NCBI RefSeq assembly: GCF_947331435.1
Contig: NZ_CAMZOF010000008.1
Span: 372,001 to 436,000, forward strand
DNA from: Pelagibius sp. Alg239-R121
GTDB taxonomy: Bacteria; Pseudomonadota; Alphaproteobacteria; Kiloniellales; Kiloniellaceae
Direction of reading: 5' to 3'
DNA: 64,000 nt
This document shows, piece by piece, positions 29,852 through 50,740 of this stretch; position 1 is the first letter of the stretch, and the number at the start of each line of letters is the position of its first letter. A program made the translations under genes and the position numbers. Under the pieces are notes generated by a model. It worked only from the letters and a program-made list of their open reading frames with translations, was not told where the DNA came from and searched no databases.

Positions 29852-29928
<77 letters not shown>

Positions 29929-30636: not shown

Positions 30637-30713
<77 letters not shown>

Positions 30714-31825: not shown

Positions 31826-31869
31826 CACGGGTTTTGAGCTTTAGTGGATCCACCGAGGTGGGATCAAGC

Positions 31870-33375
31870 ATGGCAAGACGGACAGCGCGGCGACAGGCTA
31901 AAGAAAAGGGTCTTGGTGAAGATGCCGGGCCGAGCCTGCACGTCGGTGGCCGGTTGCGCCCGCTTTCAGCGGCTGATCTGTCTCTGATCGTGGATCATGC
32001 TTTTGAAATTCTGTCGACGATCGGCATATCGGGTTTGCCGCAACAGGCGAGCGAACGCGTGCTCAGACGTGGGGCGCGGCATCGCGATGACGGTCGTTTA
32101 TGCTTCCCGGCGGAAATGATCCGCGACGCGTGTGATCGCGCACCCAAACATATTGACCTTCCCGGACTCACATCCGACCGGGATCTCAGGATTGGCGGGG
32201 GCCGGGTCCATATCGGCACCGGCGGGGCTGCAGTGCAGGTGCTCGATGCCGCAACCGGGTCTTACAGGGACAGCAACCTCAGCGATCTCTATGATCTGAC
32301 GCGCGTTCTCGACGCGTCGTCCCATATTCACTACGGCGTACGTCCGGTCGTTGCCCGAGATCTCGTAGACCCCTTTGAGTTGGATATCAATTCAGCGTTC
32401 GCCTGTATGAAGGCAACATCGAAACCTATCGGCGTCAGCTTTTGCGACGCGGATCATATCGGTCCGATTGTCGATATGTTCGACATGGCCCTTGGCGGTG
32501 CAGGGGCGTTCCGGGAACGTCCGTTCTGTATGGCGGTCATTGTGCATGTGGTGCCACCGCTGACCTATGCAGCCGAAGGCATTGCCATGCTGGAACAGGC
32601 AATCGCTGCGGGTATGATCCCACAGATATGTTCGGCGGGGCAGGCGGGAGCAACCAGTCCGGTGACATTGGCCGGCGCCCTTGCCCAGGGTCTTGCGGAA
32701 TGCCTGGCTGGCTTGATCGTGGTCGATAGCGTCCGGCCTGGTGCTCCCTGTATCTACGCATTCATGCCATTCATCTCTGATTTGCGAACCGGTGCGATGA
32801 GCGGCGGCGGCGGAGAGGCCGCGGTCGCCAATGCTGCCGCCGCCCAATTGCTGGCACATCTGGGCCTGCCGTCGACCGTTTCGGCGGGCATGACGGATTC
32901 CAAAATCGCGGATGCTCAGGCCGGATTCGAAAAGGGTTACACCGTCGCAATGGCCGGTCACGGTGGCGCGGACATGATCAACCTGTCGGTGGGCATGTTG
33001 GGATCCATCATGGTGGCAAGCCCCGAAGCGATGGTGATCGATGATGACATGTGCGGTGCCATTCTGCGTTCGATCAGGGGGATCGAAGTGTCCGATGCCA
33101 CGCTCGACCTCGGATCGGTGGAACGCGTGGTGACGCAAGATGGGCATTATTTGGGCGAGGCCGAGACCCTCAAACGCATGAAGTCCGACTATTACTATCC
33201 GACACTTGCAGATCGCCAAAGCGTGGATGACTGGATCGATGCAGGCCGGAAATCCATCTGGGACAGGGCGCAGGCGCGCGTGGCTGATATTCTCGCAGGT
33301 CCCCCCCCAACACATCTGAGTGCTGAGATTGAGACGAAGATCCGCGCTGCTTATCCCATTCGCCTTGCGCCATAA
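31870..33375 (+). CDS. Trimethylamine methyltransferase family (MttB-like, non-pyrrolysine)
   Basis: Protein of 501 residues from the ATG at 31870, with GAGGTGG upstream. The MttB TIM-barrel pattern is seen in LSLIVDHAFEILSTIGI, FACMKATSKPIGVSFCD and HLGLPSTVSAGMTDSKIADA. There is no in-frame amber codon, so it belongs to the large non-Pyl group whose studied anaerobic members demethylate glycine betaine, proline betaine or carnitine. Those need a corrinoid protein; none is seen here. In this operon the acceptor may instead be handled by the FAD/GcvT protein two genes on. Substrate: a quaternary or tertiary methylamine, inferred. Confidence 0.85.
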   Translation: MARRTARRQAKEKGLGEDAGPSLHVGGRLRPLSAADLSLIVDHAFEILSTIGISGLPQQASERVLRRGARHRDDGRLCFPAEMIRDACDRAPKHIDLPGLTSDRDLRIGGGRVHIGTGGAAVQVLDAATGSYRDSNLSDLYDLTRVLDASSHIHYGVRPVVARDLVDPFELDINSAFACMKATSKPIGVSFCDADHIGPIVDMFDMALGGAGAFRERPFCMAVIVHVVPPLTYAAEGIAMLEQAIAAGMIPQICSAGQAGATSPVTLAGALAQGLAECLAGLIVVDSVRPGAPCIYAFMPFISDLRTGAMSGGGGEAAVANAAAAQLLAHLGLPSTVSAGMTDSKIADAQAGFEKGYTVAMAGHGGADMINLSVGMLGSIMVASPEAMVIDDDMCGAILRSIRGIEVSDATLDLGSVERVVTQDGHYLGEAETLKRMKSDYYYPTLADRQSVDDWIDAGRKSIWDRAQARVADILAGPPPTHLSAEIETKIRAAYPIRLAP

Positions 33376-33386
33376 CAGGAGGACTT

Positions 33387-33821
33387 ATGCAGATATTCCG
33401 CAGCATGATCATCGAAGCCCCCATTGAAAAGGTTTGGGCTGCGGTCCGTGCTTTTGATGGTGTTGCCGCCTGGAATCCGGGTGTGACCAATGCCAGACTG
33501 GAAAGCGGCGCAGCAACGGCGACCGGGACCATCCGTAGCCTGCAAATCGCCGACGGCACCGTCTTTCGCGAAACGCTGCTGGCGCATTCAGACGTCGAGA
33601 CCTTCTACACCTACGACATTCTGGAGAGCCCGCTGCCGGTTACCGGATATGTCTCGACCCACCGGTTTTTTCCGATCACCCACAGCGACCAGACGCTTGG
33701 TGTTTGGGAAAGCCGGTTCGAATGCACGCCCGAGGACGCCGCCCAGATGGAACGGGTGGTTGGTGATGTCATTTACATCGGCGGAATGACCGGACTGAAC
33801 ATGTTTTTGAAGGAGAGCTAA
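33387..33821 (+). CDS. SRPBCC (START-like) family protein
   Basis: Small helix-grip protein of 144 residues. The N-terminal pattern SMIIEAPIEKVWAAVRAFDG with WNPGV is the usual first strand and helix of SRPBCC/polyketide-cyclase-like proteins, and the long C-terminal helix is present (GMTGLNMFLKE). The fold binds hydrophobic small ligands. It starts 11 bases after the MttB-like stop and ends one base before the next gene, so it belongs to the same operon. A substrate-binding or accessory role is inferred. Confidence 0.82.
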   Translation: MQIFRSMIIEAPIEKVWAAVRAFDGVAAWNPGVTNARLESGAATATGTIRSLQIADGTVFRETLLAHSDVETFYTYDILESPLPVTGYVSTHRFFPITHSDQTLGVWESRFECTPEDAAQMERVVGDVIYIGGMTGLNMFLKES

Positions 33822-33822
33822 A

Positions 33823-34527
33823 ATGCCTGATACCCTGGCCCCGCGCGCTGTGATCGGCGTTATGACCCCCGCCATGAACACGGTTGTTCAGCCTGAATTG
33901 GAACTCCTTCGGCCGGACGGCGTAACCAACCAGATGCAGCGCTTTCGATTGGGCGGAGACTCAATTTCGGACGACCTGCCAGAGGAAGCCGCGAAGCTGA
34001 TGGATTGCCAGCCCTCAGCCATTGCTGTGGGCCTGACCACAGATGCGGGGCCCGGTGGGCCGGATAAGCTGAAAAAGCGTTGTGATGAGGTTTCGGAGCA
34101 AATCGGTGTCCCGCTCATGGGGGCATCCTTCGCGGATTATGAAGCGCTGCACAGTTTGGGTGCGACTTGCATCGGTATTGTCACTCCGTTCGATGCCAAA
34201 GTGGATGCCGTCGTTAAGGCCAACACGGAAGCGGCGGGTTTTCAGGTCGTAGCGATCAAAGGTACCGAAGCTCCGTCTCTGCCCGCTATTTGCGAGACGC
34301 CGCTGGCAGACATTCGGAGAGTTTTTGCGGAAGTTGCCGCCTCCGATTGCGATGTGATCCTTCAGGTCGGCACCGCGCTGCCCGTTGTCGCGATGATTGC
34401 GGAGCTCGAAAAGGCGCACGGCAAGCCCATCGTCGCATGTAACGCCGCAGTTTATTGGCAAACGTTACGCAGTATCGGGATCACGGATCCCATCCATGGT
34501 TACGGTCAGTTGCTGGAGTCACATTAA
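33823..34527 (+). CDS. Asp/Glu racemase-fold enzyme, arylmalonate-decarboxylase/maleate-isomerase type
   Basis: Enzyme of 234 residues. One catalytic Cys is visible at 196 (KPIVACNAAVYW). The position of the first catalytic Cys of racemases and maleate isomerases reads GLTTDAGPGG (Thr72, Thr73) with no Cys. This single-Cys layout with Thr/Ser at the other site is that of arylmalonate decarboxylase, so a decarboxylation or a one-base isomerisation is more likely than racemisation. It is fused tightly into the operon (next gene starts directly after its stop). Compare the two-Cys paralogue at 41620. Confidence 0.8.
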   Translation: MPDTLAPRAVIGVMTPAMNTVVQPELELLRPDGVTNQMQRFRLGGDSISDDLPEEAAKLMDCQPSAIAVGLTTDAGPGGPDKLKKRCDEVSEQIGVPLMGASFADYEALHSLGATCIGIVTPFDAKVDAVVKANTEAAGFQVVAIKGTEAPSLPAICETPLADIRRVFAEVAASDCDVILQVGTALPVVAMIAELEKAHGKPIVACNAAVYWQTLRSIGITDPIHGYGQLLESH

Positions 34528-36945
34528 GTGTCTGATCATGCCGAGGTGGTGGTCATCGGCGGCGGCGCTGTCGGGGCCGCAGTCCTTTATCATCTTGCCG
34601 AGGCCGGCATCACCGACACAGTCCTGATCGAAAAGAACGAACTGACATCCGGATCTACCTGGCACGCGGCCGGCAATATCCCGACCTACGCAAATTCCTG
34701 GCTCGGGATGCGGGCAGGCAACTATGCGTGGCAACTTTATAAAGAGCTCGCAAAAGACCCCGAGGCGCCGATCACCTATCGGCATACTTCCGCCATCTGG
34801 CCTGCACACAGCCAAGAGAGGATGCAGCTTTTTCAGCATTTGTGCGGTGTATCGCGCTCTGCGGGATTCGATCTTTCCATGCTTAGCCCGGCGGAGGTTG
34901 AGGCAATGCATCCCTATTGGCGGACCGACGCTACGGTACTGGGCGGCATCCTCGATCCTTATGAGGGCGACATTGACCCAAGCCAGTTAACACAGGCTCT
35001 GGCGAAACATGCACGTGCCAAGGGGGCTCAGGTCAAACGCTTTACACGTGTGACAGGATTGACGCAGCGGGCGTCGGGCGAATGGGAAATTGAAACATCC
35101 CGTGGGGAGATTGTAGCGGGTACAGTGATCAACGCCGCAGGCTCAAGCGGCGCACTCATAGCTGAAATGGCCGGATTGCATCTGCCGGTCATCACGCTGG
35201 AGCATCAATACATGGTGACCAGCGCGCTGCCTCAACTGGAAAAGGATACCGAAACCTTTCCTTTGATCCGGGACCCGGATCTCCGCTTTTACCTGCGCCG
35301 GGAACGCAATGCGCTGCTGTTGGGGTCCTACGCGCACGAAGGGCGTCCGGTCTGGCGCGACGGGGTGCCCGCCAATTTCGACCACCAGCTTTTTGCGGAT
35401 GACATTGATGGCATGATGGCGGTTTTTGAGGCTGCGGCTTCGCACGTACCGCTTTTATCCGATGCAGGTGCGCAGCAGTTTGTAAACGGGCCGATCCCAT
35501 ATGCACCGGACGCGCTGCCCCTGGTCGGGCCCGCAGGCGGCATCCGCAATTTCTATCACGCCACGGGTGTTCAAATCGGCATCACGCATTCCGCGGCAAT
35601 TGGCAAAGCGATGGCCGAATGGCTAAGCGAAGGCGAAACCGAATGGGATCTTTCCGCTTGGGACCCGCGCCGCTTCGGACGTTGGGCGACAGAAGACTAT
35701 GCAGCTGCGCGCGCGTCCGAACATTACGATCTGCAATATGCCATTCCCTATCCGCACCGCATCCTGCAATCGGGACGGCCCGTAAATCAGACTCCGCTTT
35801 ACGAACATCTGCGCAGCCAGGGTGCCGTGATCGGACAGATCGGTGGCTGGGAGCGGGCATTCTGGTTCAAACGGAACGCGGCGGATGATTCAGAGGCGCT
35901 GAGCTTTGGGTATGAACCATGGCAGGACGCTGTGCGCGTTGAGTGCGAAACCGTAAGAGATGCGGTCGGCATCATGGACCATGGCGGTTTCACAAAATAC
36001 CTGCTGGAGGGGCCAGAGGCTGTTGCAGTTCTGAGCCGCTTAATTTGTGGCGCATTGCCCCGGGTTGGTCGTGTGCGCCTGTCATACATGCTGACCTCAA
36101 AGGGGCACATATGGTCGGAAGCGACGATCGCACGCCTGGCGGAAAACCGCTTTCTGCTATGCGGCCCGACGCTGGCCGTTGACCGGGATTTCGATTGGAT
36201 TTCCACCCAAATCGGGCAGGCAGATGCAGCGCTTGCCAAAGGCTATGTGCATGACGCGGCTTTGCTGGTAATGGGGCCCAAGTCACGTGCGCTGTTGCAA
36301 TCCCTGACATCGGCTGATCTGGGCTCAGAAACCGCCCCATGGATGAGCGTGACTGAGATCGAAATCGCGGGCGTCCCCGTCACGGCCATGCGGGTCAGTT
36401 ATGTGGGCGAATTGGGGTGGGAGCTGCATACATCGTCTGATCATCTGACAGAACTTTATCGAGCCATTTGGCAAGCGGGTTTGCTGCACGGCATCTGTAA
36501 TTTTGGCTCCTATGCACTGAACGCCATGCGGATCGAGAAAGGCTACCATGGCTGGGGGGCAGATTTCGGCACGGAATACACCTTGTTTGACGCGGGTCTG
36601 TCGAACTTCGCCAATATGTCGAAAGGCCCGTTCACAGGGCGAGAGGCAGTTGTCCGGCAAGCGAACAACGACGCTGACTGGAACTTCATCGGGATGGAAA
36701 TCACAGACCCGGGTCCCGACCCGCTGCCGTCCGATCCAATTGTGAAAGACGGCGAAGTGATCGGCTATCTCACTTCGGTGTCCATGGGGTACCGAACCGG
36801 CAAGCTTCTGGCACTCGGCTATGTCGAGAAAGGGGCGTTGAACATGGGCGAGGCCTGCAGCGTCCAAGCGTTCGGGACCGAGCGCCGGGCTGTCCGGCAT
36901 TCGCATCATGTCTATGACCCGGACAACCGCAAACTGCGGGCTTAG
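34528..36945 (+). CDS. FAD-dependent oxidoreductase with GcvT domains (dimethylglycine/sarcosine dehydrogenase type)
   Basis: Protein of 805 residues starting with GTG next to the previous stop. The N-terminal half is a DAO-type FAD domain: dinucleotide fold VVVIGGGAVGAAV at 7-19 and GSTWHAAG with His46, the position of covalent FAD attachment in dimethylglycine dehydrogenase. A bridging domain leads to GcvT and GcvT C-terminal domains (MRVSYVGELGWELHTSSDH, GYRTGKLLALGYVEKG) which bind tetrahydrofolate. The likely reaction is oxidative demethylation of an N-methyl amino acid with transfer of the one-carbon unit to THF. Same length as the paralogue at 58214. Confidence 0.9.
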   Translation: MSDHAEVVVIGGGAVGAAVLYHLAEAGITDTVLIEKNELTSGSTWHAAGNIPTYANSWLGMRAGNYAWQLYKELAKDPEAPITYRHTSAIWPAHSQERMQLFQHLCGVSRSAGFDLSMLSPAEVEAMHPYWRTDATVLGGILDPYEGDIDPSQLTQALAKHARAKGAQVKRFTRVTGLTQRASGEWEIETSRGEIVAGTVINAAGSSGALIAEMAGLHLPVITLEHQYMVTSALPQLEKDTETFPLIRDPDLRFYLRRERNALLLGSYAHEGRPVWRDGVPANFDHQLFADDIDGMMAVFEAAASHVPLLSDAGAQQFVNGPIPYAPDALPLVGPAGGIRNFYHATGVQIGITHSAAIGKAMAEWLSEGETEWDLSAWDPRRFGRWATEDYAAARASEHYDLQYAIPYPHRILQSGRPVNQTPLYEHLRSQGAVIGQIGGWERAFWFKRNAADDSEALSFGYEPWQDAVRVECETVRDAVGIMDHGGFTKYLLEGPEAVAVLSRLICGALPRVGRVRLSYMLTSKGHIWSEATIARLAENRFLLCGPTLAVDRDFDWISTQIGQADAALAKGYVHDAALLVMGPKSRALLQSLTSADLGSETAPWMSVTEIEIAGVPVTAMRVSYVGELGWELHTSSDHLTELYRAIWQAGLLHGICNFGSYALNAMRIEKGYHGWGADFGTEYTLFDAGLSNFANMSKGPFTGREAVVRQANNDADWNFIGMEITDPGPDPLPSDPIVKDGEVIGYLTSVSMGYRTGKLLALGYVEKGALNMGEACSVQAFGTERRAVRHSHHVYDPDNRKLRA

Positions 36946-37862
36946 CCGAACCCTCCTTCTATATTCGACCACGTGGCCAAGGCCTGTCCGACGTCCATAA
37001 TCGGACCGTTGTCCTCGTCTTCGGTGCGCATCAGAACCTGCCATGGAACCTCGATCCCATCCTTTCCAACGCGGGCTCCGACGATGCGTCCCGCCTCGAT
37101 CGCCGGGCGGACGGCCCAGCCTGCCAATACGCTGCTTCCCTGGCCGGCGGCAACCAGTTCGACGATGGCTTCAGGCAACTCCACAGTTGCGGTCCAGCGG
37201 GGATAGCTTTCTGTAGGACGGAACAGACGCGCAAACTCCCGGTCCGGTTCAGGGGTCTTGGTGTAGGTAATGAACTCCTCGCCTTCGATATCCACGCCGT
37301 CTATGAAGGCTTTTCCGGCATGGCGGTGGTTGGGTGGCATGATGAACAGCAGCTCATCCCGAAACAGCGCGATCGGGCAGGTCCCAAAGGGGACAGCTTC
37401 GCCCGAGACAACGATCAAATCCACATGCCGATTGGTAAGTGCCTGAATCGGCTCGCGCCCGGCGCTTGCCATGACCTGCAGGTCTACGCCCGGAAGATGT
37501 GTTCGCAAATAGCTCGTGAAGCCGGGCAGCCAGTGATACGAGCTATAGGCTTCTACAGCGATGCGCACAACGTGCTCGGCCCCGCGATCCATACGCCGGA
37601 CATCTTGTTCGGCACGGTCCATCTCAGACAAAACGCGTTCGGCAGTATCAGCGAGATAATCGGCGGCGGGCGTCATACGCAGTCGCTTGTGCATACGCGT
37701 AAAGAGGACGACATCCAGCCGGCGCTCCGCCTCTTTTATGCGATGTGAAAGGGCAGACGGCGTGACACCTAAGGCCTCGGCCGCATCGGTTACGCGCCCA
37801 TGCATCGCAATGGCTCGAATCATCTTGAGGTGACGCAGTTCAAGCAGCGGGCCGTCTGGCAT
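36942..37862 (-). CDS. LysR family transcriptional regulator
   Basis: Regulator of 306 residues. The winged helix reads GRVTDAAEALGVTPSALSHR followed by ERRLDVVLFTR, the MetR-like LysR style. An effector domain follows (AYSSYHWLPGFTSYL...). It converges on the FAD/GcvT gene with a four-base overlap and is divergent from the aminotransferase at 37965. A TGAAA-N13-TTTCA dyad covers its start codon. It probably controls the aminotransferase gene, itself and perhaps the MttB-like operon. Confidence 0.9.
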   Translation of the reverse strand: MPDGPLLELRHLKMIRAIAMHGRVTDAAEALGVTPSALSHRIKEAERRLDVVLFTRMHKRLRMTPAADYLADTAERVLSEMDRAEQDVRRMDRGAEHVVRIAVEAYSSYHWLPGFTSYLRTHLPGVDLQVMASAGREPIQALTNRHVDLIVVSGEAVPFGTCPIALFRDELLFIMPPNHRHAGKAFIDGVDIEGEEFITYTKTPEPDREFARLFRPTESYPRWTATVELPEAIVELVAAGQGSSVLAGWAVRPAIEAGRIVGARVGKDGIEVPWQVLMRTEDEDNGPIMDVGQALATWSNIEGGFG

Positions 37863-37884: not shown

Positions 37885-37964
37885 CAAGAACTACCAATTT
37901 TCTTAATTGCTTTTCATCTGAGGTCAAGTCGAAACTCATGCTCACGTCAGCAGAGGAGTGCGCA

Positions 37965-39242
37965 ATGACCGAATCAGTTCAGGATATGTGGTGTGCACGG
38001 GCGCGATCGGTTTTGCCAGCGGGCGGGTTTGGGAATTACGACCCAAGCATCGTTATCAAAAGAGGGCGCGGCGCCCGTGTCTGGGATGAAGATGGTAAGG
38101 AATACATCGACTACCTGATTGGCTCCGGCCCCATGCTCGTCGGTCACAACCACCCGGAAGTGATGGAGGCCGTACAGGAGCAGCTTGCCAACGGCATGAC
38201 GTATTTTGCCAATAACGCCGCCGGAATCGAATTGGCTGAGGTCATTTGCGAGGCCGTCCCCTGTGCGGATCAACTGCGGTACGTCTCATCCGGATCTGAA
38301 GCAGACATGTATGCCATGCGGTTGGCCCGTGCCCATAGTGGGCGCAATCTTATTCTGAAGTTTGAGGGCGGCTATCACGGCATGTCCGGCGAAGCGCTCA
38401 TGAGTATGGCACCCCAACGGCTGGAGAACTTCCCGCAAGCCGTTCCCGACTCTGCAGGCATCCCCCAGGCGACCCGTGATGGGGTTATTGTCGCGCCCTT
38501 TAACGACATCTCATTTGCGCGGCAGATTATCACCGAATATGCGGATCAATTGGCAGGAGTGATTGTCGAACCTCTGCAACGTCTGATCCCACCTCTACCC
38601 GGTTTTCTCGAAGCCCTGCGCGAAGAAACGACGCGCCACGGGATCGTGCTGATCTTCGACGAAGTCGTAACCGGATTCCGTCTCGCTTATGGCGGTGGTC
38701 AGGAGCTTTATGGTGTTACCCCTGATCTCTGTACTTTGGGGAAAGTCATTGGCGGCGGTTTTCCAATGGCTGCAATTGCCGGAACATCCGACATCATGGC
38801 CCATTTTGACGTCGAGAAAGTCGGTCCCGAAGGCCTCACTTTTCAAATCGGAACCCTCAGCGGGAATCCTGTTGCCGCCGCCGCTGGCTTAAAAACACTG
38901 GAAATTCTGCGTCGTGCAGGGGCTTACGAGACGCTTCGCGCCACCGGGCGCAAGCTGATGAAAAAACTTCAAACCGAGGCCGCCCGAATGGGTTTAACCG
39001 CGACCCTGGTCGGGGACCCGGTCCTTTTTGACATGGTTTTCGCGAAGGCGCCGGTGGCCGACTATCGCGATACCTTAAGAGCCAACTCCGACCAGCAGCG
39101 GACCTTCAATGCATCACTTCGCGCAGATGGGATTCTCAAAGCCCCAATGAAGTTTTACGTATCGCTTGCTCATACAGATACCGAAGCCGAAGTGACCGAA
39201 CGCGCAATTACCCGCGCAATCGAGGCTGTTGCGACCGCGTGA
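37965..39242 (+). CDS. Class III PLP aminotransferase, glutamate-1-semialdehyde-aminomutase-like
   Basis: Enzyme of 425 residues from the ATG at 37965 with GAGGAG upstream (an ATG at 37938 would add nine residues). Schiff-base Lys260 in DLCTLGKVIGGGFP, PLP-ring Asp232 in LIFDEVVTGFR and phosphate loop VSSGSEADMYAMRLAR are all present. The sequence is closest in style to GSAM-like aspartate aminotransferase family proteins. The true HemL usually lies elsewhere; the island context suggests transamination of an amine or amino acid from the methylated-compound pathway. Confidence 0.88.
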   Translation: MTESVQDMWCARARSVLPAGGFGNYDPSIVIKRGRGARVWDEDGKEYIDYLIGSGPMLVGHNHPEVMEAVQEQLANGMTYFANNAAGIELAEVICEAVPCADQLRYVSSGSEADMYAMRLARAHSGRNLILKFEGGYHGMSGEALMSMAPQRLENFPQAVPDSAGIPQATRDGVIVAPFNDISFARQIITEYADQLAGVIVEPLQRLIPPLPGFLEALREETTRHGIVLIFDEVVTGFRLAYGGGQELYGVTPDLCTLGKVIGGGFPMAAIAGTSDIMAHFDVEKVGPEGLTFQIGTLSGNPVAAAAGLKTLEILRRAGAYETLRATGRKLMKKLQTEAARMGLTATLVGDPVLFDMVFAKAPVADYRDTLRANSDQQRTFNASLRADGILKAPMKFYVSLAHTDTEAEVTERAITRAIEAVATA

Positions 39243-40458: not shown

Positions 40459-41607
40459 ATGTTTTCAGGGCGAATGGACGAACTTCGAAGAAAACTGATT
40501 GAGTCAGATTTCGATGTTGCACTGATCACCGACGACGACAGTGTCTATTACTTCACCGGCTACTACGATTATCTCCATATGGAATTCGGGCGCCCCACGA
40601 TCCTTGTCGTTCCCAGAGAGGGTGAAAGTCTGTTGATCACGCCCAGCATGGAACTGGACATGGCCGAAGCCGCAGCGGTCGTGGACCGGATCGAAGCCTG
40701 GAATGACGGTATGGGTGAGGAATGGCGCACGGCTCTGCCCGCATCGCTCGCCGGGTCGGGCAGGGTGGCAATTGAACCGGACGTCATGCCGCCGCTGGTG
40801 CGCAATTATCTTGATACCATCGTCGCGGTGTCGCGGCTGGGCGACGTTACACCCATCGTTTCGGATATGCGGATGATCAAGTCGGAGGAGGAGATGAACC
40901 TCGCCCGGCACGCGGGTCAGGTGGCGATGGCGATGATGGACGCCGGCCGTGAGGCAATCGGTGACGGTGTCCGGGAATACGAAGTGGCGCTCGCCACCTC
41001 GGCGGCGGGGACGCGCAAGGCGGCCGAACTGCTCGATGCGCACTATCAGGATGCGCGCATGTCACCCAACACCCATTTCCTGCAGATCATGGCTTCGGGC
41101 GCGGAAATCACCAAGCCGCATCATCGTGCGACAACCCGGGTGATGCGTCGGGGCGAACCTGTATTTCTATGCTTCTGCGGAATGACCAACTTCCATCGTT
41201 TCAAGCTCGGCTTCGATCGCACCTTCTGGATTGGCGAAATCGCAGATAAATCACAAGAAGCCGTCTATCGGGTCGCTGTCGAGAGTCAGGCAGCGGCACT
41301 CAAACTGCTGCGTCCCGGCATCACCGCAGAAGAAGTTCATGCTGCCTATGCCGACGTCATTCAGGGTGCCGGCTACGAGTATCCTTTCCGTTGCGGACGC
41401 GCCACCGGCTTTAGTTTTCTGGAGAAACCGCAATTGGTTTTTGGGGACAAGACAGTTCTTCAGCCGGGCATGGTTCTCGCCGTCGATGGGTCGGTCAGCG
41501 TGGCAAGATCTTTCCGCGCCCAGGTTGGCGACAGTTTTATTGTGACCGAAGACGGCTATGAGCAATTGACCATCCACCCCAAGTCTCTGAATGACGTCGT
41601 TCTCTAG
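40459..41607 (+). CDS. Creatinase-like M24 family hydrolase without metal ligands
   Basis: Pita-bread-fold protein of 382 residues. The N-terminal creatinase domain (SVYYFTGYYDYLHMEFGRP) leads to MRMIKSEEEMNLARHAG, a segment nearly shared with creatinase. The five metal ligands of M24 aminopeptidases are absent: the Asp pair region reads LGFDRTFWIG and the Glu region LAVDGSVSV. His221 or His222 (KPHHRATTR) aligns with the catalytic His of creatinase. This points to a metal-independent amidino- or amido-hydrolase, such as creatinase or the ectoine hydrolase group. Creatinase yields sarcosine, which would suit the FAD/GcvT enzymes here; substrate still inferred. It starts an operon with the isomerase at 41620. 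Confidence 0.82.
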   Translation: MFSGRMDELRRKLIESDFDVALITDDDSVYYFTGYYDYLHMEFGRPTILVVPREGESLLITPSMELDMAEAAAVVDRIEAWNDGMGEEWRTALPASLAGSGRVAIEPDVMPPLVRNYLDTIVAVSRLGDVTPIVSDMRMIKSEEEMNLARHAGQVAMAMMDAGREAIGDGVREYEVALATSAAGTRKAAELLDAHYQDARMSPNTHFLQIMASGAEITKPHHRATTRVMRRGEPVFLCFCGMTNFHRFKLGFDRTFWIGEIADKSQEAVYRVAVESQAAALKLLRPGITAEEVHAAYADVIQGAGYEYPFRCGRATGFSFLEKPQLVFGDKTVLQPGMVLAVDGSVSVARSFRAQVGDSFIVTEDGYEQLTIHPKSLNDVVL

Positions 41608-41619
41608 TGGAGGCAGGCA

Positions 41620-42414
41620 ATGTTTAATACAGGCGATAAAGTACGATCGGCGCCACGGACCCCTGAACTTGATGCAGGCCAGCACTGGCGGGCAAAGCTT
41701 GGCTTTATACTGATGTCCACGGATCTCGCGGCCGAATCTGATATGTTTGCCATGGTGCCGGAGGGTGTGGCGATACACTTCACGCGCCTTAAGACCGAGG
41801 ATTATACGACCAATGAGACCCTCGCGCGGCATATCGACGCCATGGCGGATGCCGCTTCCCGCCTGCAACCGGACACCAGGCCTGACGTTATCAGTTACAG
41901 CTGTACGAGCGGCTCGATCGTAAACGGCGAAGAGCAGGTTATGTCTGAAATCAGGCGGGGGGCACCCTACGCGCAGCCCATGACACTGGTGACCGGTGTC
42001 GTCGACGCTCTGCGCGAATTGGGCGCAAAGAAACTGGTCGTCGGCACACCTTATCTCGACGAGGTCAATACCGCCGAAGCGGAGTTCCTGGTTGATAAGG
42101 GCTTTGAGATTCTCGATATCCAGGGTTTGAACCTGGAGACCGGCGTCGAATTCGGACGCGTGACACCGGACTATTGGAAGCGTTTTGCGCTGGAGATCGA
42201 CCGACCTGACGCGGATGCGGTTTTCTTGAGTTGTGGCGGTATCCGGGCTCTCGAAGTTGCCGAGGAAATCGAACAGGAGATCGGGAAACCCGTCGTTACC
42301 AGCAATCAGGGTCAAATGTGGAGTTGCCTGCGCCGTGCCGGCATCAGAGATGAAATCAGCGGCTTCGGCCGGATCTTCTCCAGACCCGGAACATCACTCC
42401 TCCCCGCAGACTAA
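41620..42414 (+). CDS. Maleate isomerase / Asp-Glu racemase-like enzyme (two catalytic Cys)
   Basis: Enzyme of 264 residues. Both catalytic cysteines are present: Cys95 in SYSCTSGS and Cys205 in FLSCGGIRA. This is the layout of maleate cis-trans isomerase and of hydantoin/Asp racemase relatives. It begins 12 bases after the creatinase-like gene. It may epimerise or isomerise the product of that hydrolase. The paralogue at 33823 keeps only the second Cys. Confidence 0.82.
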   Translation: MFNTGDKVRSAPRTPELDAGQHWRAKLGFILMSTDLAAESDMFAMVPEGVAIHFTRLKTEDYTTNETLARHIDAMADAASRLQPDTRPDVISYSCTSGSIVNGEEQVMSEIRRGAPYAQPMTLVTGVVDALRELGAKKLVVGTPYLDEVNTAEAEFLVDKGFEILDIQGLNLETGVEFGRVTPDYWKRFALEIDRPDADAVFLSCGGIRALEVAEEIEQEIGKPVVTSNQGQMWSCLRRAGIRDEISGFGRIFSRPGTSLLPAD

Positions 42415-42581
42415 ACGGCGTTGCTGCTTCAATTGAATGAATCACTCTTGATAGGAAAAACGCTGCGTCCGTATCTGCCTTCGTCATCGCATCCTTGCCA
42501 TAGGCATGATTTACTTCCAGCTTCGAAGCGGAATCAACTGATCAAATTCGAGAACGAGGGAAGGGGCAGGGGCCTCGCAAA

Positions 42582-43418
42582 ATGAAACTGATCCACTTGA
42601 CCGACACGCATTTCGTACCTCGGGGAGAGACGCTCTATGGCGGTGACCCGCGCGCTGTCCTGGAAGCCGCGGTTGCAGATATCAATAAACACCACAGTGA
42701 TGCGGATCTTGTTTGTATTACCGGCGATCTCACGCACTGGGGCGAAACGGAAGCCTTTGAAAGTCTCGCCGAGGTCTTGTCGCCTTTAACACCGCCGGTC
42801 CAGTTGTTGCTTGGTAATCACGATAACCGCCCGGTCTTTACCGCATGCTTTCCCGATCAGAAATGTGACGAAAGCGGATTTGTGCAGTCCGTGCGAAAGA
42901 CATCGCAGGGACATCTGATTTTTCTGGATACCTATCTGGAAGGAAGCCATGCGGGGTGGTTTTGTGACAAACGGCGCGTCTGGTTATCGGAACAATTGAA
43001 GGGGGCGGAGGAGGCGGGGGCACCCGCTTTTCTCTTCATGCATCACCCACCTTTCAAGATCGGTCTGGCACCACTTGATAAGATTTCGCTCCAGGAACCT
43101 GAAGCCTTCGCCGCCGTTATTGCGCCTTACGCCGATCGTATTCGCCATCTTTTTTTCGGGCATATCCATCGGCCTTTATCAGGAAGCTGGAAAGGAATCC
43201 CGGTATCGAGCCTGCGCGGTATGAACCATCAATGCTGGTTCGATCTGGAGTCCGAAGATATCCTTTCAGGAAGTTTTGAACCGCCGGCCTACGCGGTTGT
43301 CTTGATAGCCGATGATACGGTCGTCATTCATACCCACGACTTCCTCGACGGCAGCAAAAAGTTTGATATACGCAACAGCCCGTTCGACGATTGGGCTGTC
43401 AGGTATAGCCATGCCTAA
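42582..43418 (+). CDS. Calcineurin-like metallophosphoesterase, CpdA type
   Basis: Phosphoesterase of 278 residues with the full metal set: Asp8/His10 in LTDTHF, Asp49 in ITGDLTHWG, Asn79-His80-Asp81 in LLGNHDNR, MHHPPF and GHIHRP. This class III group includes cAMP phosphodiesterase CpdA and glycerophosphodiesterase GpdQ. In this island a phosphodiester or phospho-amine substrate is as likely as cAMP. It begins 167 bases after the isomerase and is followed closely by a LysR gene. Confidence 0.86.
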   Translation: MKLIHLTDTHFVPRGETLYGGDPRAVLEAAVADINKHHSDADLVCITGDLTHWGETEAFESLAEVLSPLTPPVQLLLGNHDNRPVFTACFPDQKCDESGFVQSVRKTSQGHLIFLDTYLEGSHAGWFCDKRRVWLSEQLKGAEEAGAPAFLFMHHPPFKIGLAPLDKISLQEPEAFAAVIAPYADRIRHLFFGHIHRPLSGSWKGIPVSSLRGMNHQCWFDLESEDILSGSFEPPAYAVVLIADDTVVIHTHDFLDGSKKFDIRNSPFDDWAVRYSHA

Positions 43419-43439
43419 TTCAACGGAGGCATTCCACCA

Positions 43440-44378
43440 GTGGATCATCCTCTAAAACCGCCCAAGCAAAATACCGTTGCACCAACCCGCCTGCCGTCCA
43501 TGCAGTCGCTCAAGGCTTTTGACGCCGTCGCGAAATTCGGAAGCACGGTGCAGGCGGCAGAACACCTGCACATCACGCCGAGTGCCATCACCCATCAACT
43601 CCGTAAACTGGAAGAGTCTTTCGGTGCCCGTCTGGTCCGTAGGAACGGACGCAATTTAGAACTCACCTCAGCAGGCAATCGCTACGCCGCAGAAGTCAGG
43701 CGCGCCCTGCAGATTATCGCGCAGGCCTCGATCCCGGTTGGTGACGAGGAGCCCTACGGCCATCTCTGCATTAACTGTCAAAGCGGCTTCGGCGCTCATT
43801 GGCTCAGCCAGCACATAGGAAAGTTCAACGGACTCTATCCGAATGTTTCGATCAAGGTTGTCACACCCGACGACCGGATCGATGTCTTCAGCAATGACAT
43901 CGATCTTTCCATCGTCTATGGCGACGGCGTCTGGCCTGGAATGCAGGTGGAGTTGCTCTATTCACCGAGGTTCTTTCCGGTTTGCAGTCCACGGCTTATC
44001 GAGGCCTTCGGTGAGGTTTCTCATCCCAATGACCTCTCAAACTATCCTTTGCTTCACCACAAGGATTACAGTGATTGGGCGATCTGGCTGGCCGCCGTTA
44101 AGGCCAACGGCGTCAAGTCCGACCAGGGCACGGTCTTTACCGACGTAAATCATTGTATCGCAGCGGCCCGGGCCGGACATGGTATTGCCATTGGCGACAA
44201 TGTTCTTGCCAGTCAGGCCGTGCGTGACGGCGCCCTGGTGCGGCTGTTCCGTGGCGATGTTGTCGGCTCCAAGTCCTATTACCTCGTGACACAGGATGAA
44301 AAACGGAAACGCCTTGCTGTAGCCGCTTTTCGAAAATGGGTTTTTTCTGAGTTTGAGAAGTCGGTAGCTGACGGCTGA
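43440..44378 (+). CDS. LysR family transcriptional regulator, GcvA-like
   Basis: Regulator of 312 residues with a GTG start. The helix-turn-helix reads GSTVQAAEHLHITPSAITHQ followed by LRKLEESFGARLV, and the effector domain has the GcvA-group style (LCINCQSGFGAHWLS; HCIAAARAGHGIAIGDNVL). It lies directly before the ABC transporter operon at 44550 on the same strand and is the likely activator of it. The true GcvA controls glycine cleavage genes; one-carbon metabolism is a shared theme here. Confidence 0.88.
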   Translation: MDHPLKPPKQNTVAPTRLPSMQSLKAFDAVAKFGSTVQAAEHLHITPSAITHQLRKLEESFGARLVRRNGRNLELTSAGNRYAAEVRRALQIIAQASIPVGDEEPYGHLCINCQSGFGAHWLSQHIGKFNGLYPNVSIKVVTPDDRIDVFSNDIDLSIVYGDGVWPGMQVELLYSPRFFPVCSPRLIEAFGEVSHPNDLSNYPLLHHKDYSDWAIWLAAVKANGVKSDQGTVFTDVNHCIAAARAGHGIAIGDNVLASQAVRDGALVRLFRGDVVGSKSYYLVTQDEKRKRLAVAAFRKWVFSEFEKSVADG

Positions 44379-44549
44379 GAGTCCGGACCGTCTGGAGCGG
44401 AAGGTCGGTCCAGAGCAGCTTTAAGCCAACGCCAGTAACAGGCAATCGCTGAATAAAATTCATAAAATTGGGCAAAAACGTTTCAGTTGCGCGGAATTCG
44501 TTCGCCGTAATCATATGTGGCTGCGGAGAATTGCCGCGTCCGCGCTTGA

Positions 44550-45641
44550 TTGAACGAAGAGATTACTTTGGCCCAAATATCTACGAACGGCGTGTCGAAA
44601 CGCTACGGCGGCATCACCGTTCTGTCGGAAATCGGTATCGAAATCAACGACGGTGAATTCCTTACACTGCTGGGGCCATCCGGTTCGGGCAAGACCACAT
44701 TCCTGATGATCCTTGCCGGTTTCGTCGAGCCTTCAGCCGGCCAGTTGTTTAAAAACGGCAGCGATATCACACAGCTGCCCGCCGAACAGCGGAACTTTGG
44801 TATGGTCTTTCAGGGCTATGCCTTATTTCCGCATCTCACAGCACGCCAGAACATAGACTATCCCTTGAGGATTCGCGGTGTTCCCCAGGATAAACGCCGG
44901 TCTGACGTCGAACGGATTATCGGGACCGTTGGGTTGGACGGACATGGGGACAAGAAACCTTCACAGCTGTCTGGCGGGCAGCAGCAGCGCGTCGCCCTGG
45001 CACGGGCTCTGGTGTTCGGTCCTGATCTTCTTTTGCTGGATGAGCCCTTGTCCGCGCTGGACAGAAACATGCGCGAACAGTTGCAGGTGGAGTTAAAGCG
45101 ATTGCATCGGGAAACCGGAACGACCTTCGTGTTCGTCACCCACGATCAGAGCGAAGCTCTGGCGCTGTCCGACAAAATTGCAATCTTCGATCAGGGAAAA
45201 TTGGTACAGACCGGTACGCCTGAGACGATCTATCGCGAACCGAACACCCGTTTCGTCGCGGAGTTCCTGGGCAGCATCAATATTGTCCCTCTACAGGGGC
45301 CGGTGCAGGACGGCTCGGTGCTGAGGGGGACTTTTGGCGGGCAGCTTCTGGCGGCACCTCAAAGCAGTGACATGAACGGTTATACCAGCTGTTGCCTCGC
45401 CATTCGGCCTGAACATATGCGCGTCAGCCGCGATCGGCCGCAGGATTCAACCAATGCTCTGAAAGTTCAGGTTCGCGATCTCACTTATCAAGGCGCTACG
45501 ACCGATCTGGTTTTGTCGGCAGCCGATGAATTGATCCTGACGTTTTCGGTTCCGAGCACGACCGCTGAATTTCAACCTCGCGCCGGCGAAAAAATTTGGC
45601 TGAGTTGGCCCGCCGACAAAGGAAAAGTTCTGACCGTTTGA
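44550..45641 (+). CDS. Spermidine/putrescine-type ABC transporter ATPase (PotA-like)
   Basis: ATPase of 363 residues with Walker A LGPSGSGKTT, Q-loop MVFQGYALFPHLTA, signature LSGGQQQR, Walker B LLLLDEPLSALD and a C-terminal TOBE region (about 280-360). A TTG start at 44550 is used; another TTG at 44568 is possible. It is the first gene of a four-gene Pot-type importer. Pot-type systems also carry guanidino and opine-like compounds, which suits the hydrolases that follow. Confidence 0.86.
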   Translation: MNEEITLAQISTNGVSKRYGGITVLSEIGIEINDGEFLTLLGPSGSGKTTFLMILAGFVEPSAGQLFKNGSDITQLPAEQRNFGMVFQGYALFPHLTARQNIDYPLRIRGVPQDKRRSDVERIIGTVGLDGHGDKKPSQLSGGQQQRVALARALVFGPDLLLLDEPLSALDRNMREQLQVELKRLHRETGTTFVFVTHDQSEALALSDKIAIFDQGKLVQTGTPETIYREPNTRFVAEFLGSINIVPLQGPVQDGSVLRGTFGGQLLAAPQSSDMNGYTSCCLAIRPEHMRVSRDRPQDSTNALKVQVRDLTYQGATTDLVLSAADELILTFSVPSTTAEFQPRAGEKIWLSWPADKGKVLTV

Positions 45642-45679
45642 CATAGAGGCTTTGAGAACCACCAAAAAGGGGAGAAGAC

Positions 45680-46786
45680 ATGAATAAAGACTTCAAACGC
45701 GATTGCGTCGACCTTCTCAGGTCGAAATACGAGGCCGGTCAACTCAATCGACGCACGCTTCTCGCGGGCTTGACCGCACTCGGAGTGAGCGCAGTATGGC
45801 GACCAGGCAAGGCGGGCGCCGCAGACCAGCTTGTGGTGGTCAATTGGGGCGGCGACGCGATACCGGCCTATGAGCAGGCCTTTACCAAAAGTTTCAGCAC
45901 GGCCACGGGTACGACCATCCAAATAGACGGCTCCGGCCCGCTTGAAGGCTCAATGAAGACACAGTTTGAGAGTGGTTCAGTACGCTGGGATGTTTGCGAT
46001 GCTGAGCCCTATTCAGCACTGCGTCTTGGCCGGGCCGGCATGATTGAGCCCATTGATTATTCAATCGTGGACAAATCCAAGATCGAGCCAGGATTCGCCG
46101 ACGAATTCAGTGCGCCCTCCTACTTCTACAGCCATGTGATCGCCTATGACGCAACCAAGTTCGGCGCGAAGCCGCCGAGCTCCTGGGCTGATTTTTGGGA
46201 TGTGGAAAAATATCCCGGTAAACGCACGCTCTACAAATGGATGACCGGCGTGTTGGAAGCGGCACTTTTAGCCGATGGTGTCGATCCTGCGGAGCTTTAT
46301 CCCCTGGATGTGGATAGAGCGCTGGCCAAGATCGAAGGTTTGAAGCCCCACGTAGCGAGCTTTTGGCAGTCCGGTGCAGAAAGCCAGCAGCTTCTGCGCG
46401 ACGGTGAAGTCTCGATGGGTTTTCTCTGGCATACCCGGGCGAGCCTTACCGAACGCGACACGGAAGGCGATGTCCGCTGGACCTTCGACCAAGGGCTGGT
46501 AACGCCGTCAGGCTGGACAGTCATTAAAAACAATCCTTCGGGTGCAAAGACGGCGATGGAGTTCATCGCGCACTGCCAGAAACCTGAGTACCAGGTGATT
46601 CTGCTGCAAGAACTAGGCAATGGCCCGGCGAACCCGGCGGCGCATGCCCTGGTGCCCGCGGACTTCGCGAGCGTTGATGCGAGCTCGAAGGAAAATTTTG
46701 CACGTCAGATTGCCATTCAAAGCGAATGGTATGCCGAACACTTTGGCGGTGCTCTCGACAAATATCTCGCGCTGATCGGTAGCTAA
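45680..46786 (+). CDS. Extracellular solute-binding protein (PotD/family 1), Tat-type signal
   Basis: Binding protein of 368 residues. A twin-arginine signal is visible: NRRTLLAGLTALGVSAV at about 24-40, with likely cleavage near GAAD. The mature part has VVNWGGDAIPAYEQAF and WDVCDAEPYSALRLG, typical of polyamine-like binders. Preceded by AAAGGGGAGAAG. The Tat signal implies folding before export. Ligand unknown. Confidence 0.86.
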   Translation: MNKDFKRDCVDLLRSKYEAGQLNRRTLLAGLTALGVSAVWRPGKAGAADQLVVVNWGGDAIPAYEQAFTKSFSTATGTTIQIDGSGPLEGSMKTQFESGSVRWDVCDAEPYSALRLGRAGMIEPIDYSIVDKSKIEPGFADEFSAPSYFYSHVIAYDATKFGAKPPSSWADFWDVEKYPGKRTLYKWMTGVLEAALLADGVDPAELYPLDVDRALAKIEGLKPHVASFWQSGAESQQLLRDGEVSMGFLWHTRASLTERDTEGDVRWTFDQGLVTPSGWTVIKNNPSGAKTAMEFIAHCQKPEYQVILLQELGNGPANPAAHALVPADFASVDASSKENFARQIAIQSEWYAEHFGGALDKYLALIGS

Positions 46787-46801
46787 GAGACTGGAGCAGG
46801 G

Positions 46802-47638
46802 ATGGGGAGCGTGCGGCAGACCCAAGTGTTGCAGACGGTGTTGCTTTGGACTCTGCCTGTCCTGGTGCTTCCGTTTTACATCGCGCCTTTGCTAGGCGTT
46901 TTCGAGTGGTCTCTGTCGCGCCCAGAACCCGGGTTGCAGAACTATGTTAGGCTGGTAACGGATGGAGACGTCATCGCTGTTCTCCTCCGAACTTTCCGCA
47001 TCTGCCTGCTTGTGACTCTGATCAGCGTTCTCTGTGCGTATCTGCTCGCTTACCATTGGGTGTTCGGTTCACCGGCGCGACGCCTGATCATGGAGATCTG
47101 CATCTTTATCCCCTTTTGGATATCCGTGCTGATCCGTGCTTTCGGATGGATTGTTCTTCTGCGGACCAAAGGCGTGGCGAACGACATCCTGTTGTTTTCC
47201 GGGGTTATTTCGGATCCGCTTTATCTCGTGCGTACCGAGTTCTCAGTTGTCCTGGGTATGGTCCATTTCATGGTTCCCTTTGCGGTCTTCCCTCTGGCAT
47301 CGGTGATGCGGCAGATCGATCCCAAGATCTTACTCGCGTCACGCGGCATGGGCGCCAGCGCCAGCTTTACCTTTTTCAACGCCTTTCTCCCCCTGACTCT
47401 GGCCGGAATCGTCGCGGCCATCATTATCGTGTTCGTGTTTTCGCTTGGGTTCTTCATCACGCCGGCCGTCCTTGGCGGCGGTAAGATCGTGATGATCGCG
47501 GAATACATCTACATCCAGATGTTCCAGACTACGAACTGGGGGTTCGGCGCTGCGCTGAGCGTCGGGTTGTTGGCGATCGTGGCGATTCTGAGTGCTCTGC
47601 TCTTTCGGGTTATTCGGCCGGAAAGGCTTGTCAGATGA
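46802..47638 (+). CDS. ABC transporter permease (PotB-like)
   Basis: Permease of 278 residues with about six helices. The coupling loop is ASRGMGASASFTFFNAFLPL. It overlaps the next permease by four bases. First of the two membrane subunits of the Pot-type importer. Confidence 0.86.
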   Translation: MGSVRQTQVLQTVLLWTLPVLVLPFYIAPLLGVFEWSLSRPEPGLQNYVRLVTDGDVIAVLLRTFRICLLVTLISVLCAYLLAYHWVFGSPARRLIMEICIFIPFWISVLIRAFGWIVLLRTKGVANDILLFSGVISDPLYLVRTEFSVVLGMVHFMVPFAVFPLASVMRQIDPKILLASRGMGASASFTFFNAFLPLTLAGIVAAIIIVFVFSLGFFITPAVLGGGKIVMIAEYIYIQMFQTTNWGFGAALSVGLLAIVAILSALLFRVIRPERLVR

Positions 47639-48441
47639 CCTCATTCGGCGAGCATCTCAAGCGGCGTTGCCTGATCGTCATGGCTTATCTGGTCGGCATT
47701 TTCATGTTGGTACCGCTGATCGCAGTCATCCCGATCTCCTTTACGCCGAAGCGGTTTTTGTCCATGCCGGGCTCGGACTGGTCGCTCCGGCACTATCACG
47801 CCCTTTTCACCAGCGACGCCTGGACAGGAAGTATCGCCGACAGCGCCGTGATCGCGCTCGTCAGCGCCTGCCTGGCGACCCTTTTGGCGACGGCGTTTGC
47901 ACTGGGATTTTGGTACCGCCGGCCGCGTTTCGGTGCCCTTTTGGTTGGCCTGGCAATCCTGCCGCTTGCCGTGCCGCCCGTCGTCTCTGCCGTCATCATT
48001 TATTTTCTCGAGGCACGCCTGGGCATCATCGACAGCTATCTTGGACTCGTGATCACCCACGTCATCATGGTTTCTCCCTTCGCGGTTATCGTAATGCTGA
48101 CTGCGGTATCGAGGCTCGACAGATCGCTCGAACTCGCATCGCGAAACCTGGGCGCATCGGCGGTACAGACGACGTTTCTGATCGTACTTCCGAACCTCAA
48201 GTTCGGTCTCTTCTCCGCCTGGTTTCTCAGTCTTGTGCTGTCCTGGGAAGAGATCGCGGTGACCCTGTTTGTCAGCGGCATCGATGTTATCACCCTGCCC
48301 AAACGCATATGGGATGGTTTACGCCTTAATGTCGATCCGGTCATCGCCGCTGTATCGGTTATCCTCATGGCGGTGACTGTCCTTGTCATCTTGGCCCGTT
48401 CATTTCTGGTCTACGCCGGAAGGGCGAAAAATCACACCTGA
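47635..48441 (+). CDS. ABC transporter permease (PotC-like)
   Basis: Permease of 268 residues with about six helices and coupling loop ASRNLGASAVQTTFLIVLPN. It is translationally coupled to the PotB-like gene (ATGA overlap) and followed after 49 bases by the deiminase-like gene, so import and first hydrolysis share one operon. Confidence 0.86.
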   Translation: MTSFGEHLKRRCLIVMAYLVGIFMLVPLIAVIPISFTPKRFLSMPGSDWSLRHYHALFTSDAWTGSIADSAVIALVSACLATLLATAFALGFWYRRPRFGALLVGLAILPLAVPPVVSAVIIYFLEARLGIIDSYLGLVITHVIMVSPFAVIVMLTAVSRLDRSLELASRNLGASAVQTTFLIVLPNLKFGLFSAWFLSLVLSWEEIAVTLFVSGIDVITLPKRIWDGLRLNVDPVIAAVSVILMAVTVLVILARSFLVYAGRAKNHT

Positions 48442-48490
48442 TCTAACACTCCAAGCGGCTCAACGCATTTTAAACAGAGGAACGATTGCG

Positions 48491-49423: not shown

Positions 49424-49440
49424 AAAACATAGGGGGAAGA

Positions 49441-50730: not shown

Positions 50731-50740
50731 AGTCTAATCG

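Follow-up and report, generated by a model that had tools for sequence, protein, structure and literature searches.

Introduction

The described systems closest to the locus studied here are MtgBCD of Ruegeria pomeroyi and the MtpB, MtcB and MtyB methyltransferases of Eubacterium limosum. In R. pomeroyi, according to the accessible part of PMC12478193, genes of the MtgC, DUF1638, MTHFR, methyltransferase and RamA kinds are induced on N-osmolytes, and a shared corrinoid protein is proposed for multiple pfam06253 proteins. The three E. limosum enzymes share MtqC, which is encoded in a separate cluster (PMC8604678, accessible part). Here we describe an operon at positions 31870–36945 of a 64,000-nt window (the whole stretch of DNA analysed, from contig NZ_CAMZOF010000008.1) of the genome of Pelagibius sp. 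Alg239-R121, which comprises 8.02 Mb in 48 contigs. The operon encodes an MttB-like protein, an SRPBCC protein, a protein with the arylmalonate decarboxylase (AMDase) fold and a fusion of DAO and GcvT domains (DAO-GcvT).

Judging by its gene content, the conserved operon probably strips methyl groups from a quaternary amine, and we consider it likely to be one "spoke", specific for its substrate, of a cobalamin demethylation hub that is shared within the cell. An earlier note on this DNA had proposed a candidate corrinoid-independent demethylation operon. The operon is indeed conserved and demethylation is its probable function, but corrinoid independence is not supported: the genome has a locus with MtgC-like and RamA genes.

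Results

Operon and cobalamin machinery

The mttB-like gene (31870..33375, forward strand) is assigned to the non-pyrrolysine MttB superfamily by the profile PF06253, and by a tree to a group that we call clade II, clade I being the group that contains MtgB. It is followed on the same strand by genes for an SRPBCC/START-fold protein (33387..33821), an AMDase/maleate-isomerase-fold protein without the two catalytic cysteines (33823..34527) and a dimethylglycine dehydrogenase (DMGDH)-like fusion of DAO, FAO_M, GCV_T and GCV_T_C domains (34528..36945), with intergenic gaps of 11, 1 and 0 bases. The coordinates bear out the four open reading frames, the order, the strand and the near-zero spacing given in the earlier note. 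The start codon of mttB is either TTG at 31834 or ATG at 31870, the latter being the earlier choice; the motif aggagg precedes the SRPBCC start at 33387, and DAO-GcvT starts with GTG at 34528. Terminator-like and promoter-like patterns were no more frequent than in shuffled sequences. Neither a corrinoid protein nor the reactivating enzyme RamA is encoded within the operon, an observation on which the earlier note was built.

Profile searches of the genome nevertheless identified a single RamA and two corrinoid proteins, one standalone and one of MetH size. A single locus encodes an MtgC-like corrinoid protein (PF02607 and PF02310), a DUF1638 protein, an MTHFR-like protein, a methyl-tetrahydrofolate (methyl-THF):corrinoid methyltransferase (371 bits, above the cut-off of 259) and RamA with three RACo domains, so that corrinoid protein, reactivase and THF methyltransferase are all available at the level of the genome. 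A corrinoid protein and RamA elsewhere in the genome, which the earlier note had named as evidence against its proposal, are therefore there as far as presence goes. For 14 MttB genes the genome has a single standalone corrinoid gene, and none of the 14 lies within 10 kb of it. This imbalance and the presence of the hub in the same genome both argue for the operon being a spoke, as does the precedent of several MttBs sharing one corrinoid protein from another cluster (PMC8604678, accessible part). Because MtqC is encoded apart from the MttBs it serves, the absence of a corrinoid gene from the operon says nothing about its mechanism. In G001, the genome whose locus L025 holds the nearest ortholog, 6 kb separate RamA from a PF02607 gene, and a clade-I-like MttB gene (28%; L109) adjoins them.

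Conservation and sister clusters

A search for related loci with the MttB protein gave 29 loci, 20 of them at 62%–83% identity and nine at 41%–46%; two of the 20 (L032 and L033) carry an identical contig number and are probably one locus. Among these 20 orthologous loci, SRPBCC adjoins MttB in 19, the AMDase-fold gene is complete in 18 and partial at a contig end in L038, and DAO-GcvT is present in 19, being missing only in the contig-cut L038 and in pieces in L040. L040 sits on a contig labeled as an Acidimicrobiia metagenome-assembled genome (MAG) of 1.7 Mb, which may reflect transfer or a binning error. The gene cluster is not a product of chance, its order being kept in most of the 20 loci, which answers the co-occurrence check proposed earlier. 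The four genes first described are not its full extent: a LysR regulator gene (36942..37862, reverse strand) adjoins the operon in 17 of the 20 loci, and a class III aminotransferase of the glutamate-1-semialdehyde (GSA) aminomutase type (37938..39242, forward strand; PF00202) is found in half of them (10/20), some copies being incomplete and some contigs stopping before it. One of the 20, L042, has the arrangement MttB-DAO-LysR-aminotransferase without SRPBCC and AMDase-fold genes, and its genome (G017) gave no AMDase-fold relative at an E-value of 1e-10. No gene upstream of MttB or beyond the aminotransferase is common to many of the 21 loci, for which reason the cluster looks like a movable unit with no conserved flanks; nor is there a conserved transporter or upstream gene among the 21 that would hint at the substrate.

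Sister clusters came from a scan of 394 genomes, the family of Ruegeria halocynthiae (G005), for MttB at an E-value of 1e-180, in which the best three candidates per genome were scored. At least 11 genomes were positive, namely G005 itself and ten with an MttB at 59%–61% identity. Compared with the operon, the loci of this second clade (L115–L124 and L126) are 59%–62% identical in MttB, 58%–68% in DAO and, where it was found, 55%–62% in LysR. DAO-GcvT adjoins MttB in 10/10 second-clade loci, followed by a second DAO-GcvT in six. SRPBCC and AMDase-fold genes accompany them in only one (L123), where they are divergently transcribed, and an AMDase-fold ortholog was found among the ten genomes only in G152 (70%), the others giving 26%–31% or none. 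A class III aminotransferase and an aldehyde dehydrogenase are also encoded in L115, as shown by profile, and in L126, going by its annotation; the other loci look similar by eye, and L126 has an ABC transporter in addition. The genes of L115 and L126 are predicted to make up a full chain of N-demethylation and deamination, and together with the constant pairing of MttB and DAO-GcvT they add to the case for a spoke. The core of the cluster is thus MttB and DAO-GcvT, mostly with LysR. SRPBCC and the AMDase-fold protein are an accessory pair, since they are missing from nine of the ten second-clade loci and from L042.

Distribution with the cobalamin hub

The MttB ortholog occurs in 19 genomes, with SRPBCC adjoining in 18. 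All 19 have RamA, and 18 have a PF02607 protein, with one or more frames of 227–422 residues in each; the miss is a 1.7-Mb MAG. The survey for carriers without corrinoid proteins, suggested in the earlier note, therefore went against that note. Because RamA is also found in 372 of the 394 genomes of the sampled family, its presence in the carriers is uninformative by itself, and a comparison with RamA-less genomes was added.

This comparison set the 20 listed of the 22 RamA-less genomes against 30 of the 372 RamA-positive ones (every tenth handle from G080 to G370; control G280 is a second-clade carrier). An MttB of any kind was present in 8 of the 20 and in all 30 controls. Classified as standalone or MetH-size by open-frame length only, corrinoid proteins of standalone size occur in four of the RamA-less genomes (G133, G148, G203 and G238), 12 have only a MetH-size protein and four have none; G312, in the MetH-size class, also shows a weak 28-bit corrinoid match in a 329-aa frame. 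The first four were set aside, as RamA may be missing from the drafts. None of the remaining 16, which have neither RamA nor a standalone corrinoid protein, carries a clade-II-like full-length MttB, against 17 of the 30 RamA-positive genomes (Fisher p 8e-5, a statistic that treats related genomes as independent, which they are not). Clade II was called here by score and not by tree (319–395 bits, covering 85% or more of the profile), and G376 (383 bits over 78% of the profile; broken and nearer to clade I) and fragments in G245 (355 bits, positions 1–279) and G414 (354 bits, 1–297) were not counted. Weaker RamA matches (G306, G327, G393, G404, G413 and G423) were kept out of both groups; a standalone-size corrinoid protein occurs in all six of these genomes and an MttB in five. 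That clade-II-like MttB tracks the genomes with a hub is a further reason to regard the operon as one of its spokes.

The MttB-like protein

The protein scores 348 bits with PF06253 (cut-off 25) over profile positions 4–490 of 500. It is not a pyrrolysine-type trimethylamine methyltransferase: TIGR02369 gives 307 bits against a cut-off of 525, the frame has no internal stop, and the pyrrolysine position is Met353 (Ile in L122, Leu in MtgB). The nearest solved structures are those of MtgB (9yce and 2qne). Residues D355, K357, D360, Q362, G364 and E366 are common to all operon-type rows of the alignment, MtgB and MttB, which again favors the spoke assignment; D355 is not kept in the clade I copies of the genome. 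A His shared by MtgB and the nine clade I copies is replaced by Leu384 in operon-type rows and by Glu or Gln in other clade II rows, which suggests a different substrate pocket, and Ile392 stands where MtgB has Phe. The corrinoid-contact residues of MttB, Thr111 and Gly372 (PMC9842639, accessible part), correspond to Ala132 and Ile392 in the operon protein and to Gly and Phe in MtgB.

In the MttB tree, which has 59 rows and is rooted only for display, nine of the genome's 14 MttBs fall into clade I with MtgB (2QNE), and the other five, including the window copy, into clade II. Clade II has 48 rows (support 100/99) on a stem of length 1.52. The operon type and the sister clusters form a single branch of 30 rows (100/100), and the 20 rows with SRPBCC and AMDase-fold genes (cut, for the latter, in L038) all lie inside a 23-row subgroup (95/93), whose other members L042, L118 and L122 lack the pair. 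The very long branch of the pyrrolysine MttB (7XCL) makes its placement unsure. Relatives of the genome reach 18 (G024) and 14 (G393) MttB-superfamily genes, and its own 14 are twice the "up to seven" per genome given in the accessible part of PMC12478193. Some of the genome's MttB genes have as neighbors a DAO-GcvT gene, an FMN oxidoreductase and a mandelate-racemase-like gene (L013), or an Amdase gene with both cysteines (L015).

Two other accounts of this protein have to be weighed. The first, which takes up the idea of the earlier note, is direct transfer of the methyl group from MttB to THF bound in the GcvT domain or to some other acceptor; in a more specific form, the recipient of the methyl group from clade II MttB would be the folate site in the DAO-GcvT protein of its own cluster, and the association with MtgC and RamA would reflect shared habitat and ancestry only. 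The general and the specific form alike strike us as very unlikely. The replaced corrinoid contacts fit this account, but the corrinoid-dependent MtgB also differs from MttB at these positions; MttB and DAO-GcvT share a cluster in 19/20 orthologous and 10/10 second-clade loci, but GcvT and DMGDH domains oxidize an N-methyl group to methylene-THF and do not form methyl-THF by transfer. The long stem of clade II also speaks for it. It was rejected as the best account on the genome-wide presence of RamA (19/19) and a corrinoid protein (18/19) in the carriers, and on the RamA-less comparison, and we found no positive evidence that MttB works with THF directly. According to the second account, the protein is no longer a methyltransferase but a binding protein or an enzyme with different chemistry, and DAO-GcvT is the sole demethylase. 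The divergent active-site positions would agree with this, as would a neighboring Amdase-fold protein that has visibly lost the catalytic residues of its family, but the six residues kept in common with MtgB and MttB, and the link to hub-bearing genomes, make it improbable.

DAO-GcvT and the accessory proteins

DAO-GcvT has the complete DMGDH-type domain architecture and a full-length match: its best solved relative is mitochondrial DMGDH (5l46; 525 bits, residues 2–789), ahead of bacterial dimethylglycine oxidase (327 bits). A GSTWHAAG stretch is common to it and 5l46, the His of which we take to carry the FAD. A second DAO-GcvT is encoded at 58214–60631 of the window, accompanied by an APH/choline-kinase-like gene (60656–61582) and a divergent gene for a DeoR regulator, and could supply a further demethylation step. 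The aminotransferase falls below both HemL cut-offs (TIGR00713, 360 < 527 bits; NF000818, 392 < 398 bits), and its nearest solved structures are GSA aminomutases.

The SRPBCC protein belongs to the SRPBCC/START superfamily by profile (PF10604, Polyketide_cyc2, 69 bits) and by its AlphaFold2 model (pLDDT 95.9), for which Foldseek returned 7tmu at the top (TM-score 0.91), and also 3p51, XoxI and plant abscisic-acid receptors. Close pairs of SRPBCC genes recur across the order. L105 and L106 have tandem pairs, 30%–39% identical to the protein of the window, near ABC ATPase genes, and in L106 the pair is followed by genes that by eye resemble CO/xanthine dehydrogenase subunits.

The AMDase-fold protein is a member of the AMDase, maleate isomerase and Asp/Glu racemase family by profile (PF17645, Amdase; 47.5 bits, cut-off 25.9). 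Foldseek with its AlphaFold2 model (pLDDT 93.7) gave the uncharacterised 4ix1 on top, then 2dgd, maleate isomerase and AMDase, with a TM-score of about 0.8 to the latter two. This similarity might indicate that SRPBCC and the AMDase-fold protein carry out the usual Cys-type racemase, decarboxylase or isomerase step on an arylmalonate- or maleate-like substrate. We think this unlikely, as both catalytic cysteines are replaced (by Leu71 and Gly183) in all 18 aligned orthologs, the pair is not found beside MttB in L042 and nine second-clade loci, and the genomes of these ten loci have no AMDase-fold ortholog elsewhere (26%–31% identity at best, or none). The Cys of maleate isomerase (Ala in 4fq5) aligns with Gly183, and two paralogs from the same genome (window:41620 and L015:15773) keep Cys at both positions. 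The description "single-Cys racemase fold" in the earlier note needs correcting: the protein has six cysteines, none at a catalytic position. Four of them (Cys87, 157, 176 and 206) do not vary among the 18 orthologs and are absent from the two Cys-keeping paralogs. With these four, the Cys-less protein is a candidate for a chemistry that would be new to this well-studied fold. A literature search on Cys-less members of the AMDase family gave nothing useful.

Discussion

Proposed pathway

In the pathway that we propose, MttB would demethylate a quaternary trimethylammonium compound once and load the methyl group onto the MtgC-like corrinoid protein, whose gene lies elsewhere in the genome; from there the methyl-THF:corrinoid methyltransferase of the mtgC locus would move it to THF, with RamA keeping the cobalt reduced. 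The DMGDH-like DAO-GcvT would then oxidize a further N-methyl group to methylene-THF, and the aminotransferase, where present, would remove the amino group once it is free. The two accessory genes, for SRPBCC and the Cys-less AMDase-fold protein, would be dispensable, and their products would act on the particular substrate or on its skeleton. Since genes for DAO-GcvT, an aminotransferase and an aldehyde dehydrogenase accompany clade II MttB, the likely substrates narrow to R-N(CH3)3 compounds that yield, on demethylation, an amine open to transamination. No substrate turned up in the literature, including the accessible parts of PMC9723723 and PMC4334477.

Several points weigh against this proposal. 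Every reaction step in it is deduced from gene content and comparison; no role can be assigned to SRPBCC or the AMDase-fold protein; and, with RamA so common in the sampled family, its presence in 19/19 carriers is weak evidence taken alone. Three active-site positions (Leu384 for His, Met353 for Leu and Ile392 for Phe) differ from MtgB, with nine clade I copies keeping the His, and the MttB-family structures that can be placed (MtgB and MttB) are both outside clade II in the tree; we found no assay of any clade II MttB in the literature. The RamA-less genomes G133 and G203 carry a clade-II-like MttB, and both have a standalone corrinoid protein, while G167, also RamA-less, keeps an intact clade I MttB and has only a MetH-size corrinoid protein. 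The MttB of G167 (L163) is 61% identical to L012 and lies in a stretch with what look by eye like metF- and metA-like genes; full-length MetH might serve it.

Neighboring genes in the window

Genes for tRNA-Pro and tRNA-Arg (29852–29928 and 30637–30713) lie just upstream of the operon and are possible island insertion sites. Downstream, a cluster at 40459–50730 encodes an M24 peptidase, a second Amdase protein with both catalytic cysteines, a phosphoesterase, a LysR regulator, a DDAH-like protein, an M20 hydrolase and an ABC transporter that is spermidine-like by eye. It looks like a cluster for the breakdown of an arginine- or ectoine-like compound, and was not seen in the flanks (about 10 kb) of the orthologous operons. 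A tmRNA is predicted at 50688–51224.

Comparison with known systems

Our searches of the openly licensed literature gave no description of this gene set, in line with the earlier note, whereas its principle, a shared cobalamin hub, is already known. Most likely the operon is an aerobic branch of that hub, specific for its substrate and with an unusual accessory pair. It points to a route of quaternary-amine breakdown in aerobic bacteria that relies on the hub described only recently, and it shows how an MttB clade with no placeable characterised member is combined with genes for DAO-GcvT, an aminotransferase and an aldehyde dehydrogenase.

A related gene arrangement in R. pomeroyi is a megaplasmid operon (L125, SPO_RS21400–SPO_RS21380), which likewise has LysR, a clade II MttB (43% identical), a GSA-type aminotransferase and a DAO-type oxidoreductase. 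It differs in having two FAD oxidoreductases and an Xsc-like thiamine pyrophosphate enzyme, with no SRPBCC or AMDase-fold gene in the stretch. The gene set of L125 (span SPO_RS21405–SPO_RS21380) would fit a stepwise conversion of taurine betaine to taurine and sulfoacetaldehyde. The Xsc-like enzyme is below its cut-off (401 < 620), and taurine betaine, which rests on that enzyme, is not claimed as substrate of the window operon. SPOA0309 is listed as a sulphoacetaldehyde acetyltransferase in the accessible part of PMC4334477, and going by accession numbering alone may be the Xsc-like gene of L125.

The sister-clade loci resemble the operon in MttB, DAO and LysR (55%–68% identical), but six of the ten have a second DAO-GcvT, some have another type of aminotransferase and an aldehyde dehydrogenase, and only one has SRPBCC and the AMDase-fold gene. 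With the E. limosum system of MtpB, MtcB and MtyB, served by MtqC, MtqA and RamQ (PMC8604678), the operon would have in common that several MttBs with different substrates rely on one corrinoid protein encoded elsewhere; that host is an anaerobic acetogen, and the accessible description names no DAO-GcvT, SRPBCC or AMDase-fold partners. A further likeness is to the glycine betaine demethylation by MtgBCD of R. pomeroyi (PMC12478193), where, in the accessible text, an aerobic MttB-superfamily protein works with central MtgC, MtgD, MetF2, DUF1638 and RamA, and demethylation continues on dimethylglycine and sarcosine. Unlike MtgB, the operon MttB belongs to another clade, at 24%–29% identity to the clade I paralogs of its own genome, and the operon adds SRPBCC, the Cys-less AMDase-fold protein, LysR and an aminotransferase.

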